A stretch of DNA of 64,000 bases, taken from the NCBI GenBank assembly GCA_963576785.1, contig OY756148.1, positions 1,922,001 to 1,986,000 of the forward strand, in the 5' to 3' direction. Position 1 is the stretch's first letter; each line of letters opens with the position of its first letter. Positions 12,161 to 26,886 of this stretch are shown here, one piece after another. The stretch is from Chlorophyllum brunneum. Lineage: Eukaryota > Basidiomycota > Agaricomycetes > Agaricales > Agaricaceae. The notes beneath the pieces are model-generated. The model was not told where the DNA came from, did not search any database, and saw only the letters and a list, made by a program, of their open reading frames with translations. The position numbers and the translations under genes were made by a program.

Positions 12161-13013
12161 GCCTCCTCTACCATCTGCTACCTTGACCTTACCACCCTAC
12201 TAGGACAAAAGCCATTATGAGGATCCTTTCTCAGATGTTGGAAGTGGCCAATCACATTAGATACTGACCCATCAAACTATATGGAGTAGAAGAACTCCCT
12301 GAGGACAGTCCTTACTACCGACTGCCTAAGATTGAATGTAACGAAATGGAATTCATTACTAACGAAGGGAATAATGTTATGTCCAAACCTTGAACCTACA
12401 TCATAGGTTACAACAAGTTTCCAGAAGTAATACCACTCATCCTACCACCACGATCCAATGACACCATTATTGATTCTCTACTTTGACTAGCCTGGAAATA
12501 TGCACCATACTTACATGTATGCAATACTGATGGACTCTACTTATGCACCATTGAGAACAACCTCTACAGTACCTGGAATAACAGTTGGAAAGCATGACCG
12601 ACTACTGAAGAAACTATGCAGTACATCCACCCCTACATGTACACTCATGGTCCAGTGCTCAAAGTGCTCATTCACCAACAAGTTGCCGATAGAATCTATT
12701 GCATAGAAATGTGACCCAGAGACTTATCACCAGACAACGAACCTACTATACCCAGTAGTGACAGTGACAATTTTCCCCATCTGCTATTGTGATCTACTCA
12801 AGCCTTTGTCGAGTCACCCAAGTCTTATCTCTCCGAAGAACCAATTGCATCTACGTCATTTCTACTATCCAACTCCAATCATCCTATAGATGCAGTTCTT
12901 CCATCACCACTATTGTTGTCATCACCCTCTACCACTTTGCCCTGCATATCTTGTGACTACAGCTGTTCCGATGAATCTCAACCATCATTATCTGAGATCT
13001 CTGAGGATGAGTA
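12161..13013 (+). pseudogene. Gypsy family II extra ORF in the env position, second part
   Basis: This continues the frame cut by LINE B. Readable blocks include KLYGVEELPEDSPYYRLPKI, LAWKYAPYLHVCNTDGLYL and QYIHPYMYTHGP, then a Ser/Pro-rich tail ending SEISEDE with TAA at 13011-13013, beside the start of the LTR. All seven breaks I counted are TGA. The paralogous copy at 23896-24725 has CAA at three of these sites and CGA at another, so the ancestral codon was CGA (Arg). I recognise no domain. The Trp/Tyr/His-rich core is clearly conserved between the copies. Confidence 0.55.
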
Positions 13014-16534: not shown

Positions 16535-17105
16535 TGTTGAGGAAACGACTATAACGAGTTGTTTGCTGGAGGCAGCAGTAAACGCAGTGGGAGAGAACGT
16601 AAGGTCTACTCACCAAGATAATAAGCTTCTATCTGATACCTGTAGAAAGATAATTCGGATAGACAGATATTATTGATAAACCGGTTGATGTTAGAGTCAT
16701 AGAGATCAAAGTCAATTAAATCGATTGAGGTGTTGTACTCAAAGAGATAGGCAATGGTGAAGAAGTTGTTCGATTGAACAAGATACAGAACTAGGTCTGC
16801 TACATGGGGTTTATATACATATTGTAACATAGGTGAGTCATACTACATAAAATACTAGCATTGCATGGATTGTTCCTTATAACTCCTTTTAACTGTGGCA
16901 TAGTGCCTGCGGAGTACTGCAGAACATAGTATCTAGTCATTAGTACTATGTAGAATAATCTATCAAGTACTTATGACTCTCGTTGTATGCAGAGCAACTC
17001 ATAGGAAGTTACTACGGAATGAAGTTACTGGAAAGTAACGAATCAGTCTATTATTATCATAATGACTTCATAGTCTATTTCTAGAATATGTCCAAAACTT
17101 CAACA
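16535..17105 (-). repeat. C1 3' LTR
   Basis: 571 bp. It contains the same LTR frame as the 5' LTR (16830-16606) with a GTGAGT donor instead of GTAAGT. Confidence 0.93.
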
Positions 17106-17140: not shown

Positions 17141-20100
17141 TCACTCAAACATCAAGCCAAGGCAAGGTCAAAATAGATTGAATTTAATTTTGTCTAAATT
17201 CTTTGTGAGAATATCGGCAGGATTTTCAGTGCCTTTCATAGAGAATATTTCAATCTTTCTGTTTTCTACCAAATCATGAATGTAATGGTATTTGACATCA
17301 ACATATTTTGATCATTTTTCTGTTACTGGATTTTTGGCCCAAAATATTGAACCCTTATTATCACCAAAGAGATAAGGGGCCAATGATTGAATACCAATTT
17401 CTTCCAACAAATTGACAGTTCAAACGAGTTGTCGACTGCAATCTGACAAAGCCATATACTCGGCTTCAGTGGAAGATAATGCAATAGTTTTCTGTTTCCT
17501 ACTTAACCAAGCGATAGCTCCGCTGGCTAATAAACAGAAATATCCAGTTACAGATTTACGACTAATTGGATCACCAGCCCAATCAGAGTCGGAAAAAGCA
17601 TTAAGGCCTTGCATAGAACTTCCATTATAGGTAATTCTATATTTGCGAGTAGCACTAAGATACTTTAGCAAATGTAAGCCTGCATTATAATGCACTTTAG
17701 TGGAATTGGTCATATGTTGTGATAATTTGACAGTGGCGAAAGCTATGTCGGGCCAACTGCCTATCATCAGATACATAACTAATCCTACTAACTGTTGATA
17801 CCTTTTTATGAAGTCAGGTATTGCTTTTCCTGTATTGGATTCGAAGATAAATCCATTTGGTAATGGGATTTCTTTCTTTCCAATCACTTTAAATTGATCA
17901 AGGACTTTTCCTAGATAATCCATTTGGTCTAGGGTGATTGATCGGTTTATAGGATTTTGCGAAATTTTCATGCCAAGGAACTCTTTGGTTGGACCAAGGT
18001 CTCGGCATTCCCATTTCTTCATAAAGAGTGCTCACTTCTCATGTAGAAGTCTAGAGCCTCTAATTCCAACGAACATTGAGTCATCTACATAGACCAGAGC
18101 TATAATAAGCTCTTTGGTTTCAGAGTCATAGTAATAATAGACTCCAGCATCTAGTTTGGATCGGACAAATCCTAGGTCGGTCATTGACTTAGTCAATTCC
18201 TTTCACTATTGTCGTCCGGATTGCTTTAGTCCATAAATGGCTCAGTTTAATTTCCAAACCAAATTACTACGACCTGTATTGAAACCTTCTGGGAGTTCCA
18301 TATAGAGTTCTTCATCCAGTTTTCCGTAGAGATAAGCAGTTTTAACATCTAAACTGAGCATCTCCCAATCATTGAGGGCAGTGACTGCAAATATAAGTTA
18401 TACTGTCTCATAACGGACTACTGGTGAAAATAGTTCATCGTAATCGATTCCCTCTATCTGAGAGAATCCTTTTGCTACTAGTCGAGCATGGTATCGACCA
18501 TCTGATTTGGGTATGAAGACCCATCTATTTTTGACAGCTTTTCTTCCAGGTGGAAGTTTAGCTAAGTCATAAACATGTCTTTCTTTGAGTGAATTTAACT
18601 CTTCTAAGCACGCTTTCCACCATTTAGATTTCTCTTCTGATGGTAGTCAATTTAGATCCTTGAGAGAAATAGGAACTAATGGTGATTCAACTTTTTGAGC
18701 ACACAGATAATCGATTATCCCTACTCCTCCTTCTCTGCATAAGTCTTCTAATGTAGAAGCTTCATGCTGAGAACGTCTATCGATTATTCCAGGTTTGGAA
18801 GCCTCTGATCGAATTTGTCTAACAAGTCTATTCGTAGAACTTGTCAACTTCAACTTAGGAGGTTGGAACATCTCATAGTCCTGGAGTATTTTGGTCGGAT
18901 GCTTTGTAGAACCATAGAAGTTTCCTAGACGTTCAGGTACTTTTCTGGTTCTTTGCAGTCTCTGAGGTATTTTAGGAACCGGTATTTGGTCCAAGTGACC
19001 TCGTGGTACAGAAGGACCAGCATCCCGATTATCTTCGACAGGGGTATAGGGTATGAAAGGCTGTATATCCGGATCATCTCTTTGAGAAGGCGGATGGTTT
19101 GGACCTTCAGGATGATCGGGTGGATCAGCATATGATAATCCATCACTGTCATCATCTTCTGGTGTTTGTGCTTCTCTTGGTGGAAAGAGAATGTTTTGCA
19201 CAATATTATCCCACTCCTCCTGAACATTGGTATTAATATTCAGTGCTTTTCCCTTTCCTTTATTCTTCTTAGGTTCAGGGAAAGGAGTTGGAATTCGTCC
19301 ATGAACAGATCTATAAGTCCTATCTTCTGGAGAACTTTTGGGAGAAGTTCGGGGAATAGGACTCGGTGGTCTATCAATAGGTAAACCAGTAGATGGATCT
19401 GGAGCATGGAAGACAATAACTTCCGAAGGTGTACTTCGAGAAGTAGAAGATGATGGTTGGTTCATCCGTTCTTCTTGCTTCTTCCCAACACATTTAGGGA
19501 AGTGTTCTTCACTGAATATGGCTGTTGGAGATGTATAGATTACATTCTCATTCAGGTGCCTCATGAAACAATAGTTTTTCCTATCTGATGTCCAATCAAG
19601 GAAAATCATGAGTTCTGACTTTGCTATCAGTTTATTGTCTCTTATCTCTTTTGGGAAAAAGACATAAGCACCGCAGCCAAAGACTCTCTCTTTGGAGATG
19701 TCTGGAATCCTCTAATTCAACACTTCATAAGGTGTTTTCCACATGAGCCATGATACCGGTGTTTTATTATAGATATGTATCGCATGATCTATAGAAAACT
19801 CCCACCAACCATCAGGAATACAAGCATGATGCCGCATGGCTTCTGCTTTATCCATTAGAGTTTGGTTCAAGTATTCTGCTCGACCATTTTGTTGGTGTAT
19901 GTGTGGTGCACTGGTCTCATGTATAATCCCTAATGAGCGCAAATGAGATTGCAACTTGTCAGTTACATACTCTCCTCCTTTATCAGTGCAGAGATATTTT
20001 AATTTAGTCTCGTATTGAGTCTGAATTAGTGCAATGAAATTTTTCATTTCTTCTGCTGCTTCTGATTTCTTATGGAGGAAGCAAATCCATCCATGAGAGG

Positions 20101-21208
20101 AAAAGTTGTCCATTATGGTCATGACCCATTTGAATTTATGGTAAGAAAGAATTGGAAGTTCAACTAAATCCGAGTGAATTCTTTCTAATGGATGCTTTGC
20201 ATGTGTAGGGTTCTCTCTAAAGGGTTTCTGGTGCATCTTTCCCTTGGCACAACCGTCACAGACTGGTTTTTGCTCGGGAATCCGTACCAGAGTAAACCCA
20301 ATCGTATTTTTCTCAAAATGATTGAGGATACGATTAGAGGGATGTCCTAATCTTACATGTACAACTTTGTAGCCAACGATCAGATCCACAGTCATAGCTG
20401 CTTGTTCCGAGTATACAATTTTGGTATTAACAAAATGTAAAGTAGTGTTACGACTTGCTGAAGGATATGCTTGAAGAATAGCATTTCCTTCGCTATCAAC
20501 AACTACTGATTTGTTGGCATCTGTTCTAACAGTTTTGCCATCCTGGCATAACTGTCCCACTGACATTAGTTGTTCAGAGGTTCCTTTTAGAAGGAAGACT
20601 GGATATATTAATATCTGCGTTGGTTGAACACTGTCAGTCTTCCCATTATAGACTCTATGCTTAAGCATAACTGCACCAAGACCAACCACATTAAGGTAGG
20701 GACCTTGTGCTCCTACAGTTTTAATTGGGATCGAAACTTTGAGTTCTTCGAAGTTGATAAAGTCTTCTGCATAAGGGGTATAATGACATGATGCCCCTGA
20801 GTCTAATAACCATATGTCACTATATTCTTCTAGTGGCATTATGATTTGATCATTGCTTAGCGATCGAGATCTTATTTGATCTAGTACTCTTAAATACTGA
20901 TCAGGCATGTGCGTTGAGAAACAAGAAAATTGAGAAGTGTTCAAACACTTCTCATTCATTGATTCGCACAAAAATACATTATTATGGGATCCTAAAGATC
21001 CCAATAGTGTATCTATATGCCCAGCCCCCAACGTCCTTTCCCCTTGCCCTTGCCCTTCTTCTTGTGAAGTTGGCCAGTCGGCATATTGGTGACAGGACTG
21101 TGTATCAGGGTTAGTAAGAGTATCTGAGATCAAATGGATCACGTACCCAGCTCCTCCCTTCTTCTTGAAATTGCTTCCGTAGTCGGTCAATGAAAGTCCG
21201 AGAGACAC
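17141..21208 (-). pseudogene. C1 pol: protease, integrase, reverse transcriptase, RNase H; several stops
   Basis: One reading frame covers the whole copia pol order. Protease: WLLDSGASCHY. Integrase: VRLGHPSN with CDGC, then catalytic HSDLVEL, CTDKGGEY and NGRAEYLNQTL. A Pro/Ser-rich linker leads to the reverse transcriptase, with LVYVDDSMFVG near 18085. RNase H: SDSDWAG, SSTEAEYMAL and the usual DILTK tail. Stops include TAG after EVLN (about 19712), TGA after KDLN (about 18647), TGA after RQLV (about 17420) and TGA near the C-terminus. The catalytic residues I can see are intact; point stops, not domain loss, inactivate it. The frame differs from gag, so a frameshift or separate start is needed. 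Confidence 0.9.
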
Positions 21209-23191: not shown

Positions 23192-23403
23192 CTAGAAGAA
23201 AATTCTCGTATCAGTAATGATCAAATACAAGGATAACTCTGTCAGGTAAAGCCCTATCATCCTATCTTGGTTAGAGGGGATGATAATAGTTTAACCATTG
23301 GTAAGGCTACCGGGGCCCATAACCTGTTGAGGAAATGAAAATAACAAGTTGTTTGCTGGAGGCAGCAGTAAACGCAGTGGGAGAGAACGTAAGGTCTACT
23401 TAC
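23192..23403 (-). other. Predicted intron from C1 5' LTR to gag, removing the primer site
   Basis: On the minus strand the donor GTAAGT starts at 23403 inside the LTR. A CTGAT branch-point-like motif and a pyrimidine-rich TTTTCTTCTAG acceptor end at 23192. The intron is 212 nt and phase 1. It contains the LTR end and the primer-binding site. The related C2 copy has the same arrangement (26408-26199, 210 nt). Confidence 0.7.
23313..23324 (-). other. C1 primer-binding site, internal (half) initiator-tRNA type
   Basis: The minus strand reads GGTTATGGGCCC directly after the 5' LTR. This is complementary to the anticodon arm of initiator tRNA-Met, the primer site known for Drosophila copia, which uses a cleaved half-tRNA. 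It is not the usual 3'-end TGGTATCAGAG type. It lies inside the predicted intron. Confidence 0.65.
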
Positions 23404-23895
23404 CAAGATAATAAGCTTCTATCTGATACCTGTAGAAAGGTAATTCGGATAGACAGATATTATTGATAAACCGGTTGATGTTAGAGTCGTAGAGATCAAA
23501 GTCAATTAAATCGATTGAGGTGTTGTACTCAAAGAGATAGGTAATGGTAAAGAAGTTGTTCGATTGAACAAAATACAGAACTAGGTCTGCTACATGGGGT
23601 TTATATACATATTGTAACATAGGCGAGTCATACTACATAAAATACTAGCATTGTATGGATTGTTCCTTATAACTCCTTTTAACTGTGGCGTAGTGCCTGC
23701 AGAGTACTGCAGAACGTAGTATCTAGTCATTGGTACTATGTAGAATAATCTATCAAGTACTTATGACTCTCATTGTATGCAGAGCAACTCATAGGAAGTT
23801 ACTATGGAATGAAGTTACTGGAAAGTAACGAATCAGTCTATTATTATCATAATGACTTCATAGTCTATTTCTAGAATATGTCCAAAACTTCAACA
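23325..23895 (-). repeat. C1 5' LTR
   Basis: 571 bp, TGTTGAGG...TTCAACA, with gag downstream on the minus strand. It carries the LTR exon. Confidence 0.93.
23404..23620 (-). CDS. LTR-encoded first exon of C1 gag (72 codons plus one base)
   Basis: Within the 5' LTR an ATG at 23620, preceded by an in-frame TAG, opens a frame (MLQYVYKPHVAD...RYQIEAYYL). It ends at a GTAAGT donor; unspliced, it stops two codons later. Splicing to 23191 continues in frame as ERNTLDEDI and then the gag Met, adding about 81 residues to gag. The C2 LTR encodes a clearly homologous peptide. Over 53 aligned codons I count roughly 19, 7 and 29 differences at codon positions 1, 2 and 3, the pattern of a protein under selection. 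The motifs FFTI.Y, FDLY, CLSEL.FYRY and EAY are shared. The function of the extension is unknown. Confidence 0.65.
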
Positions 23896-25210
23896 CCTTT
23901 ACCATCTACCACCTCAACCTTACCATCCTACCAGGATGAAGGCCATTACAAGGATCCCTTCTCAGACATTGGAAGCAGCCAATCACATTAGATACCAACC
24001 TGTCGAACTATATGGAGTAGAAGAACTCCTCGAGGACAGTCCTTACTACTGACTACCCAAGATTGAATGTAATGAAATGGAATTTGTTACTAACAAAGGG
24101 AATAATGTTATGTCCAAACCTCGAACCTATGTCAGAGGTTATGACAAGTTTCCAGAAGCAATACCACTTGTCCTACTACCATGATCCAATGATGCTATTA
24201 TCGATTCTCTACTTCAACTAGCCTGGAAATATGCACCATACTTACATATATACGACACTGATGGACTCTACTTATGCACCATTGAGAACAACCTCTACAG
24301 CACCTGGAATAATGGTTGGAAAGCATGACTGACTACTGAAGAAACTATGCAGTACATCCACCCCTACATGTACACTCACAGTCCAGCACTCGAAGTGCTC
24401 ATTCACCAACAAATCACCAATGGAATCTATTGCATAGAAATGTGACCTAGAAACTTATCACCAGATGACAAACCCACTGTACCCAGTAGTGACAGCAATG
24501 ATTCTCCCCATCCACTATTGCAATTTACTTGAGCCTTTGTTAAGTTACCCGAGTCCTATCTCTCCAAAGAACCAATCACATCTATGTCATCTCTATTATC
24601 CAACTCTGATTATCCTATGGATGCAGTTCTTCCATCACCACTGTCATTGTCATTGCCTTCTACCACTTCATCCTGCATGTCTTGTGACTGCAGCTGTTCT
24701 GATGAATCTCCATCATCATAAGTAAGCACTCATCTATTTCACTGTCATCAGTTTCACTTTGCTCTATGTTTAGCTGTTTCATCTTTATCAGTTCACGTTT
24801 ATCTTTAGCAGTGTTTCACCTTGAGTTTCATATCTATCAGTTTCACATTGTGAAACATGTTTCAGTCTCATTATCTATACTCTGTAGTATTTATAGAAAA
24901 GAAGTAGTTAGTATAAATAGCCAACTATATTAGGAAGTCAAAGCTTAAGCTTTGATCTTCTATAGGGATAGCCTTCTTGATTGCCTAAGAAGAGTTTCCA
25001 TTGACAGTTGCTGTCAATCAATAGAAGATTACTTAACTGCTTATTCTCTACTCACCCTTATCACTCAGAGCTATGAGATAAATGGGATTCCCATTTCTTG
25101 GTTGAGTAACGACAGTTTGCTTATCTGGTTACTTGGCTGAGATAGGTATTAAGGCCATACCCTAGAGGTCACATCCTCTTCAATTGCCCTTAGTAGCCAA
25201 ATCTGTAACA
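23896..25210 (+). mobile_element. Gypsy family II, second copy, right piece with LTR
   Basis: This aligns with 12164-13510: the end of the extra ORF (to about 24720), then the LTR ending TAACA at 25210. A short deletion removes the polypurine region next to the LTR start. It keeps CGA or has CAA at positions where the other copy has TGA. It meets family I gag sequence at 25211. Confidence 0.8.
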
Positions 25211-26172: not shown

Positions 26173-26329
26173 AATACCTTTGTCAAGAAAATTTCTTACT
26201 AGAAGAAAATTCACAATCAGCAATAATCAAAGACAGGAATAACTCTATCAGGTGAAGCCCTATCACTCTATCTCAGTTAGAGGAGGGATAATGGTTTATC
26301 CATTGGTAAGGCTACTGTAGCCCATAATC

Positions 26330-26886
26330 TGTTGAGGAAACAACCATAACAAGTTATTGCAGGGTAGCAGCAGCAAATGCAGTGGGAGAAAATATAGGGT
26401 CTACTCACTGAGGAAGTATGCTTCTAAGAAGTATCTATAGAAAGGTAGTTCAGATAGACAGAGGTTGTTTACAAAATGATTTTTGTCTGTGTTATAAAGG
26501 TCAAAGTTGATTAGGTTGAGATTGGGATTGTGTGTGAGAATATAGGCAATAGTGAAGAACTTGTTCAATTGAACAGAATCCAGAATATGTCTACTACATA
26601 GGGCTTATACATATCTAGGAGAGGTCATACTACATACAGAGTCATATAGACACATGTTGTGTTGGAAATACATAGAACATTCTATCTGACTCTTACTGAG
26701 TACTCTATATATCCTAGTTATTAGAACTACATAGAAAGATCTAAGTACCAATTATCATTACTAGTCATGATTGACTTAGTATGACTTTCATCATATGCAG
26801 AGCAACTCATAGGAAGTTTTGGTTTAGTCTATTATTATTATAACAACTTAAAGTCTATTCATAGAATATGACTAGAAACCTCAACA
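26330..26886 (-). repeat. C2 5' LTR with LTR-encoded gag exon
   Basis: 557 bp, TGTTGAGG...TCAACA. The exon ends at 26409 with donor GTGAGT. Acceptor TTCTAG is at 26199 and gag continues in frame from 26198. Near its start the exon has a 1-nt deletion relative to C1; the remaining 53 codons are open. The primer-site region reads GATTATGGGC, decayed from the C1 form. Confidence 0.8.

Follow-up and report, generated by a model that had tools for sequence, protein, structure and literature searches.

The stretch of DNA analysed here (the window) comprises 64,000 nucleotides of Chlorophyllum brunneum (contig OY756148.1, positions 1,922,001 to 1,986,000) and carries on its minus strand a copia-type LTR retrotransposon, hereafter C1. 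Its 5' LTR, 571 bp long and bounded by TGTTGA...TCAACA (23325-23895), is 96.9% identical in a repeat comparison to the 3' LTR at 16535-17105, and AAAGG flanks the element on both outer sides as a short target duplication. The two TG...CA LTRs with this duplication are what is expected of a Ty1/copia element, and so is the order of the enzymes, with the integrase preceding the reverse transcriptase in the element sense: a Pfam rve match within 19712-21208 lies upstream of a C-terminal RVT_2 match within 17420-18022 (both on the minus strand), the latter scoring 23.5 bits, under the Pfam cut-off of 31.6. The first organism-named matches of the integrase are Ganoderma sinense proteins. Upstream of the 5' LTR, the flanking sequence (23896-24400) matches 12165-12669 with 88% identity over 505 nt, and C1 may thus sit in another repeat.

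All the features that concern us lie on the minus strand, between the middle of the 5' LTR and the start of gag. A likely TATA box, TATATAAA (23600-23607), belongs to a block conserved in 79 copies of the family, and transcription would be expected to begin about 30 nt downstream of it, near 23575. Further down, an open frame leads to a GTAAGT donor (23403-23398); the part of this presumptive exon 1 that codon tests and indels mark as protein-constrained spans 23545-23404 (codons 13-59 plus one base) and opens with a candidate non-AUG start codon, AUU (23545-23543, with A at -3), proposed from its conservation. The putative intron (23403-23192, 212 nt), delimited by a conserved donor, branch region and acceptor, includes a CTGAT-like branch site (23214-23210) and ends in TTCTAG (23197-23192). 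It would also contain, from the first base after the LTR, the probable primer binding site (23324-23305), recognized by its position and conservation. The sequence of this site, GGTTATGGGCCC, presumably resembles the complement of the anticodon arm of the initiator tRNA, as in half-tRNA-primed elements, and a search for an initiator tRNA matching it retrieved none. Exon 2 would start with a junction codon and eight further in-frame codons (23191-23166) before the gag ATG (23165-23163), from which the gag frame extends to 22302 with one in-frame stop in the C1 copy. Pfam returned no family either for this gag piece or for the LTR-encoded extension. The 3' LTR has the same exon frame, and the block 23545-23405 differs between the two LTRs at 3 of its 141 nt. 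A second element, C2, shows by comparison with C1 an equivalent arrangement (26199-26550, minus strand), with an exon at 26550-26409, a GTGAGT donor, an intron of 210 nt (26408-26199) and its acceptor, next to a broken and truncated gag.

Most of this architecture had been recognized in a preliminary description made from the letters alone, and holds on re-examination: the frame 23620-23404 is open and followed by GTAAGT, the TTCTAG acceptor ends at 23192, the join of 23404 to 23191 is in frame with gag (adding 72+9=81 residues when translation is taken from 23620), and C2 has its donor, acceptor and exon end at the equivalent places and is likewise joined in frame. A recount of the C1-C2 differences at the three codon positions returned the same figures, 19, 7 and 29 over 53 codons.

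In order to evaluate the frame across the family, 120 copies (L009-L128) were extracted from this genome (38.9 Mb, 14 contigs), taken from 20 of the 40 scored matches in each of two DNA searches and, for 80 of them, through searches with the exon-frame peptide. After dropping L098 for its exon coverage, the final set consisted of 121 copies (119 fetched, C1 and C2), of which 67 include the leader and the gag start; an earlier set of 82 was reduced to 79 by the removal of three mis-oriented loci. The family has at least as many members as the copies taken. Some rows are near-identical or represent both LTRs of one element, hence not all are independent, and the tests were tree-based. Two approaches were used: a neutral model, built from U3 and the intron and including neighbour effects such as CpG, which gives w (the N/S ratio relative to neutral), and a codon model with fixed-omega nulls on a grid of kappa values. 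In the neighbour-aware test, among others, the pattern of changes was reconstructed by parsimony. Since 80 copies had been found by peptide, the codon test was repeated on the 42 that were not chosen in that way. The neutral changes themselves were mostly C to T and G to A, with the highest levels at CpG and CpA/TpG, as expected from methylation or RIP-like mutation.

Under the neutral model (121 copies), codons 13-59 of the exon gave w=0.47 (0.37-0.57), close to the value for gag, 0.53 (0.45-0.63), whereas U3 and the intron ranged from 0.85 to 1.23 in every frame and the two other frames of the exon reached 1.32 and 1.80. The codon model agreed, with an omega of 0.357 (2dlnL 144) for the exon in 79 copies and of 0.278 (2dlnL 107) in the 42-copy set, where gag gave 0.347. 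The control frames in U3 and the intron yielded omega values of 0.69-1.56 with 2dlnL up to 22.7, and the two wrong frames of the exon 1.3 and 2.0 with 2dlnL of 8 and 41, for which reason only large 2dlnL values count. A chance open frame is rejected by these frame controls, and a bias from the peptide-based fetching by the stronger result in the 42 other copies; no clear constraint was seen in any U3 frame with either model. Changes on internal branches (79 copies) were distributed over codon positions 1, 2 and 3 as 84/43/138 in exon 1 and 236/158/379 in gag, and without a coding pattern in U3 (80/56/87) and the intron (70/53/63). In the same copies, codon 30 encodes Leu in 76 of 79, by means of six codons, and codon 22 encodes Ser in 64 of 79, through both AGY and TCN codons. 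Indels common to at least two copies point in the same direction: there are none in the exon (where five single-copy indels occur) and none from the acceptor to the ATG, one in gag (a multiple of three), three between 23624 and 23546, thirteen in U3 and nine in the intron, none of these nine a multiple of three. For a 52-residue exon piece, AlphaFold proposed three helices at low confidence (mean pLDDT 62).

The constraint does not extend over the whole open frame. Neither 23620-23582 (w=1.20, 0.68-2.41) nor codons 1-12 (23581-23546; w=1.07, 0.62-1.83) could be distinguished from neutral in the 121 copies, and for the latter codons the free codon model fell below the fixed one in the 42-copy set (2dlnL -7.3), so that value is uninformative. 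Codons 13-18, on the other hand, gave w=0.36 (0.18-0.63). From about 23560 or 23545 to the donor, the LTR is, judging by these substitution patterns, under protein-level selection in the frame of gag and with a gag-like strength. The earlier proposal of an LTR exon under protein-level constraint is in this way extended from two elements to 121 copies, with U3 and the intron near neutral in the dN/dS comparison that it had called for: the constraint, the conserved splice sites and the in-frame join stand, and the constrained part is restricted to about 23560/23545-23404.

The signals for splicing are almost invariant. GTGAGT or GTAAGT forms the donor in 115 of 121 copies, and TTCTAG the acceptor in 65 of 67; at least 51 of 67 copies have CTGAT 18-22 nt before the intron end, and 7 have CTAAT (considering the top patterns). 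Exon 1 joins gag in frame in 65/67 copies, 56/67 being fully open from codon 13; the distance from the acceptor through the gag ATG is 29 nt in 66/67, and that ATG is present in 63/67. The nine codons from the junction to the ATG gave omega values of 0.25 and 0.28, with 2dlnL of 17.6 and 10.5 that fall within the range of the non-coding controls, and w=0.77 (0.37-2.37) in the neighbour- and CpG-aware test. A genome search for spliced genomic copies yielded 0 matches at up to 3 mismatches. Taken from the genomic copies, splicing of the LTR exon to gag is strongly indicated, and we consider it probable that the Gag mRNA has the R/U5 part of the LTR as its first coding exon, with splicing and a non-AUG start providing a longer Gag. 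Could the frame instead encode a stand-alone peptide of about 49 residues, translated from the unspliced RNA up to a TAG after the donor, the fusion to Gag being incidental? This TAG is present in at least 115 of the 121 copies, and the w of the short stretch after the acceptor leaves its constraint unproven. However, the conservation of the TAG carries little weight, as it forms part of a block that is conserved throughout, the donor, the acceptor and the phase of the join are all conserved, and such a peptide would likewise be without an AUG; we regard it as unlikely.

Where, then, would the translation of a spliced LTR exon start? The preliminary description began the exon at the ATG at 23620, which can no longer be maintained: such an exon would overlap TATATAAA, the segment shows no protein-level constraint, and this ATG shares the phase of the exon in 78 of 121 copies and is out of phase in the other 43. 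The out-of-phase copies include most of the shortest-branch clade, in which GTTCTG is immediately preceded by an in-frame TAA, the loss of phase being due to one-base differences just before GTTCTG together with other changes. With 23620 discarded as a start, the extension shrinks from about 81 to about 56-61 residues and a non-AUG start is needed. Indeed, from 23575 to the donor all three frames lack an ATG in 113 of 121 copies, and the sole in-frame ATG between 23581 and the donor among 79 copies is codon 7 of L048. This scarcity goes beyond what the encoded residues impose, with 10 ATGs in the exons of 65 open copies versus a mean of 24.6 (lowest 16) in 200 synonymous permutations; gag codons 2-60 have no such shortage (155 observed versus 111 by permutation, 38 copies). 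Around the TATA box (23582-23624), the minus strand is ATG-rich (2.7 per copy in 78 copies), next to the ATG-poor exon, and it includes a conserved ATGTAG start-stop.

A scan for the start of the constraint peaked at 23560 (score 85.2), with a nearly equal value at 23545 (84.9). The codon at 23545 is ATT, ATC or ATA in 120 of 121 copies (ATC in 18, ATA in 5, and GTT in the remaining one), preceded by A at -3 in 121/121 and followed by G at +4 in 101/121, and on the basis of this conservation the AUU is perhaps the best candidate for the start codon. AUU is generally a weak initiator, and the identity of the start codon is the least secure step of the model. A CUG at 23578 scored lower in the same scan (71.3 for coding from codon 3, against the best value of 85.2) and was rejected, and so was a lineage in which a stop at codon 18 would have moved the start downstream, given that the nine copies with TAG or TAA are scattered, several of them beside CAG sisters. 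An ordinary initiation could be preserved if an upstream exon, or a cap site further upstream, supplied an in-frame AUG. The position of the transcription start is, after all, deduced from the TATA box, the 23620 ATG is in phase in 78/121 copies, and in most copies codon 18 is NAG and follows a pyrimidine-rich segment, a combination that might be taken for an acceptor. Against it, TATATAAA is no more than 27 nt away from the exon, 43/121 copies are out of phase with that ATG, the U3 frames lack clear constraint, and codons 13-18 are protein-constrained (w=0.36, 0.18-0.63), unlike the end of an intron; this alternative appears improbable, to about the same extent as the stand-alone peptide. A plain 5'-UTR intron after a non-coding exon 1, whose open frame would be due to chance or a by-product of the lack of AUGs, would suit a nearly AUG-free exon and a gag with its own conserved AUG (63/67), but it is strongly disfavoured, with hardly any probability left to it, by a synonymous bias of gag strength in a single frame, by the absence of shared indels in the exon, and by the interchange of Leu codons (codon 30) and of AGY and TCN Ser codons (codon 22).

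A coding LTR exon spliced to gag would most simply be explained by a transcript with two roles, expressed in the following way. The RNA starting near 23575 would, if unspliced, retain the primer binding site and could play the role of genome, its upstream AUGs hindering Gag synthesis: when the last ATG is counted as that of gag, all 55 of the unspliced leaders have one or more ATGs upstream of it, mostly three to five. Splicing would remove the primer site and the AUGs of the intron, committing the RNA to translation, although the gag ATG is the sole ATG in only 42 of the 55 spliced leaders. Within the LTR exon, some ribosomes would initiate at a codon other than AUG, for which AUU 23545 is the best candidate, and synthesize a Gag with 47+1+8=56 additional N-terminal residues (61 if from 23560), and the remaining ones would traverse the nearly AUG-free exon and initiate at the gag AUG; initiation at both codons would result in two forms of Gag from one mRNA. 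In its full form, this scheme makes the LTR at once a promoter, a genome end and a coding exon, and splicing an irreversible switch from genome to messenger that brings about the extended Gag via a non-AUG codon, a proposal to which we would give even chances. It would represent a testable design for the separation of translated from packaged RNA, based on an intron that holds both the primer site and the upstream AUGs.

Some of these traits have counterparts in other elements. Ty1, also of copia type, has a 53-nt 5' UTR, an RNA beginning with R and an LTR of 334 bp (PMC5454406), figures that, by arithmetic, place the Gag AUG inside the LTR, which then codes for the N-terminal end of Gag. In the C1 family the constraint begins inside the LTR and the start codon would be a non-AUG one, whereas Ty1 uses an ordinary AUG, contributes about a dozen codons and has its primer site within the gag coding region, with no splicing described in the portion of that account considered here (PMC5454406). 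In murine leukaemia virus, glycoGag is a Gag extended N-terminally by initiation at a non-AUG codon that precedes the gag AUG, through a region that is generally devoid of AUGs in gammaretroviruses (PMC5778647); the extension amounts to 88 residues (PMC5120145). The C1 family resembles it in having an in-frame, AUG-poor upstream extension that lacks an AUG start and is under protein selection, a likeness proposed for the way of working only. Unlike the putatively spliced LTR exon, glycoGag is, in the parts of these accounts used here, read from the genomic RNA with no splice between the extension and gag. The barley copia element BARE1 has spliced and unspliced RNA pools with different roles, but its intron, of 104 nt, is found at the end of gag instead of across the LTR/leader junction, and its splicing ends Gag rather than extending it (PMC3735527). 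Regulated splicing also controls Gag expression in Drosophila copia, where it separates Gag from Gag-Pol (PMC2194720). Finally, the LTR retrotransposon Cer1 of C. elegans produces a multi-exon coding mRNA that shares exons with gag, although its product, CERV, is a regulatory protein in its own right, for which an ATG is predicted, and an LTR coding exon is not described in the sections consulted (PMC10309623). The combination of features of the C1 family was not found in the portions covered of these accounts of Ty1, murine leukaemia virus, BARE1, copia and Cer1, nor did searches of the open-licence PMC literature bring up an LTR exon spliced to gag, although one may have been described elsewhere. 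A protein database search for an annotated extended Gag (covering lengths of at most 1.75 times that of the query, about 325 aa) gave 43 candidates, none of them with E<=0.001.

Regulatory DNA is what LTRs are commonly taken to be, and gag is annotated from a point downstream of the leader. In the C1 family some 140 nt of the LTR show a constraint like that of gag, so that the protein would be mis-annotated, and the models for LTR dating would be wrong for that block. Under the full scheme, the many 3' and solo LTRs would become portable units of promoter, coding exon and donor that might be joined to host exons. The 3' LTR of C1 (16535-17105) and many LTR-only loci do keep the TATA box, the open exon and the donor, and could therefore act as first exons for neighbouring sequence. 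Lastly, at 23558-23569 (minus strand), just below the putative transcription start, GTTCAATCGAAC occurs in 46 of 121 copies, the perfect palindrome GTTCAATTGAAC in 31 and GTTCAATCAAAC in 28; this conserved motif is possibly a signal for RNA pairing or dimerisation.
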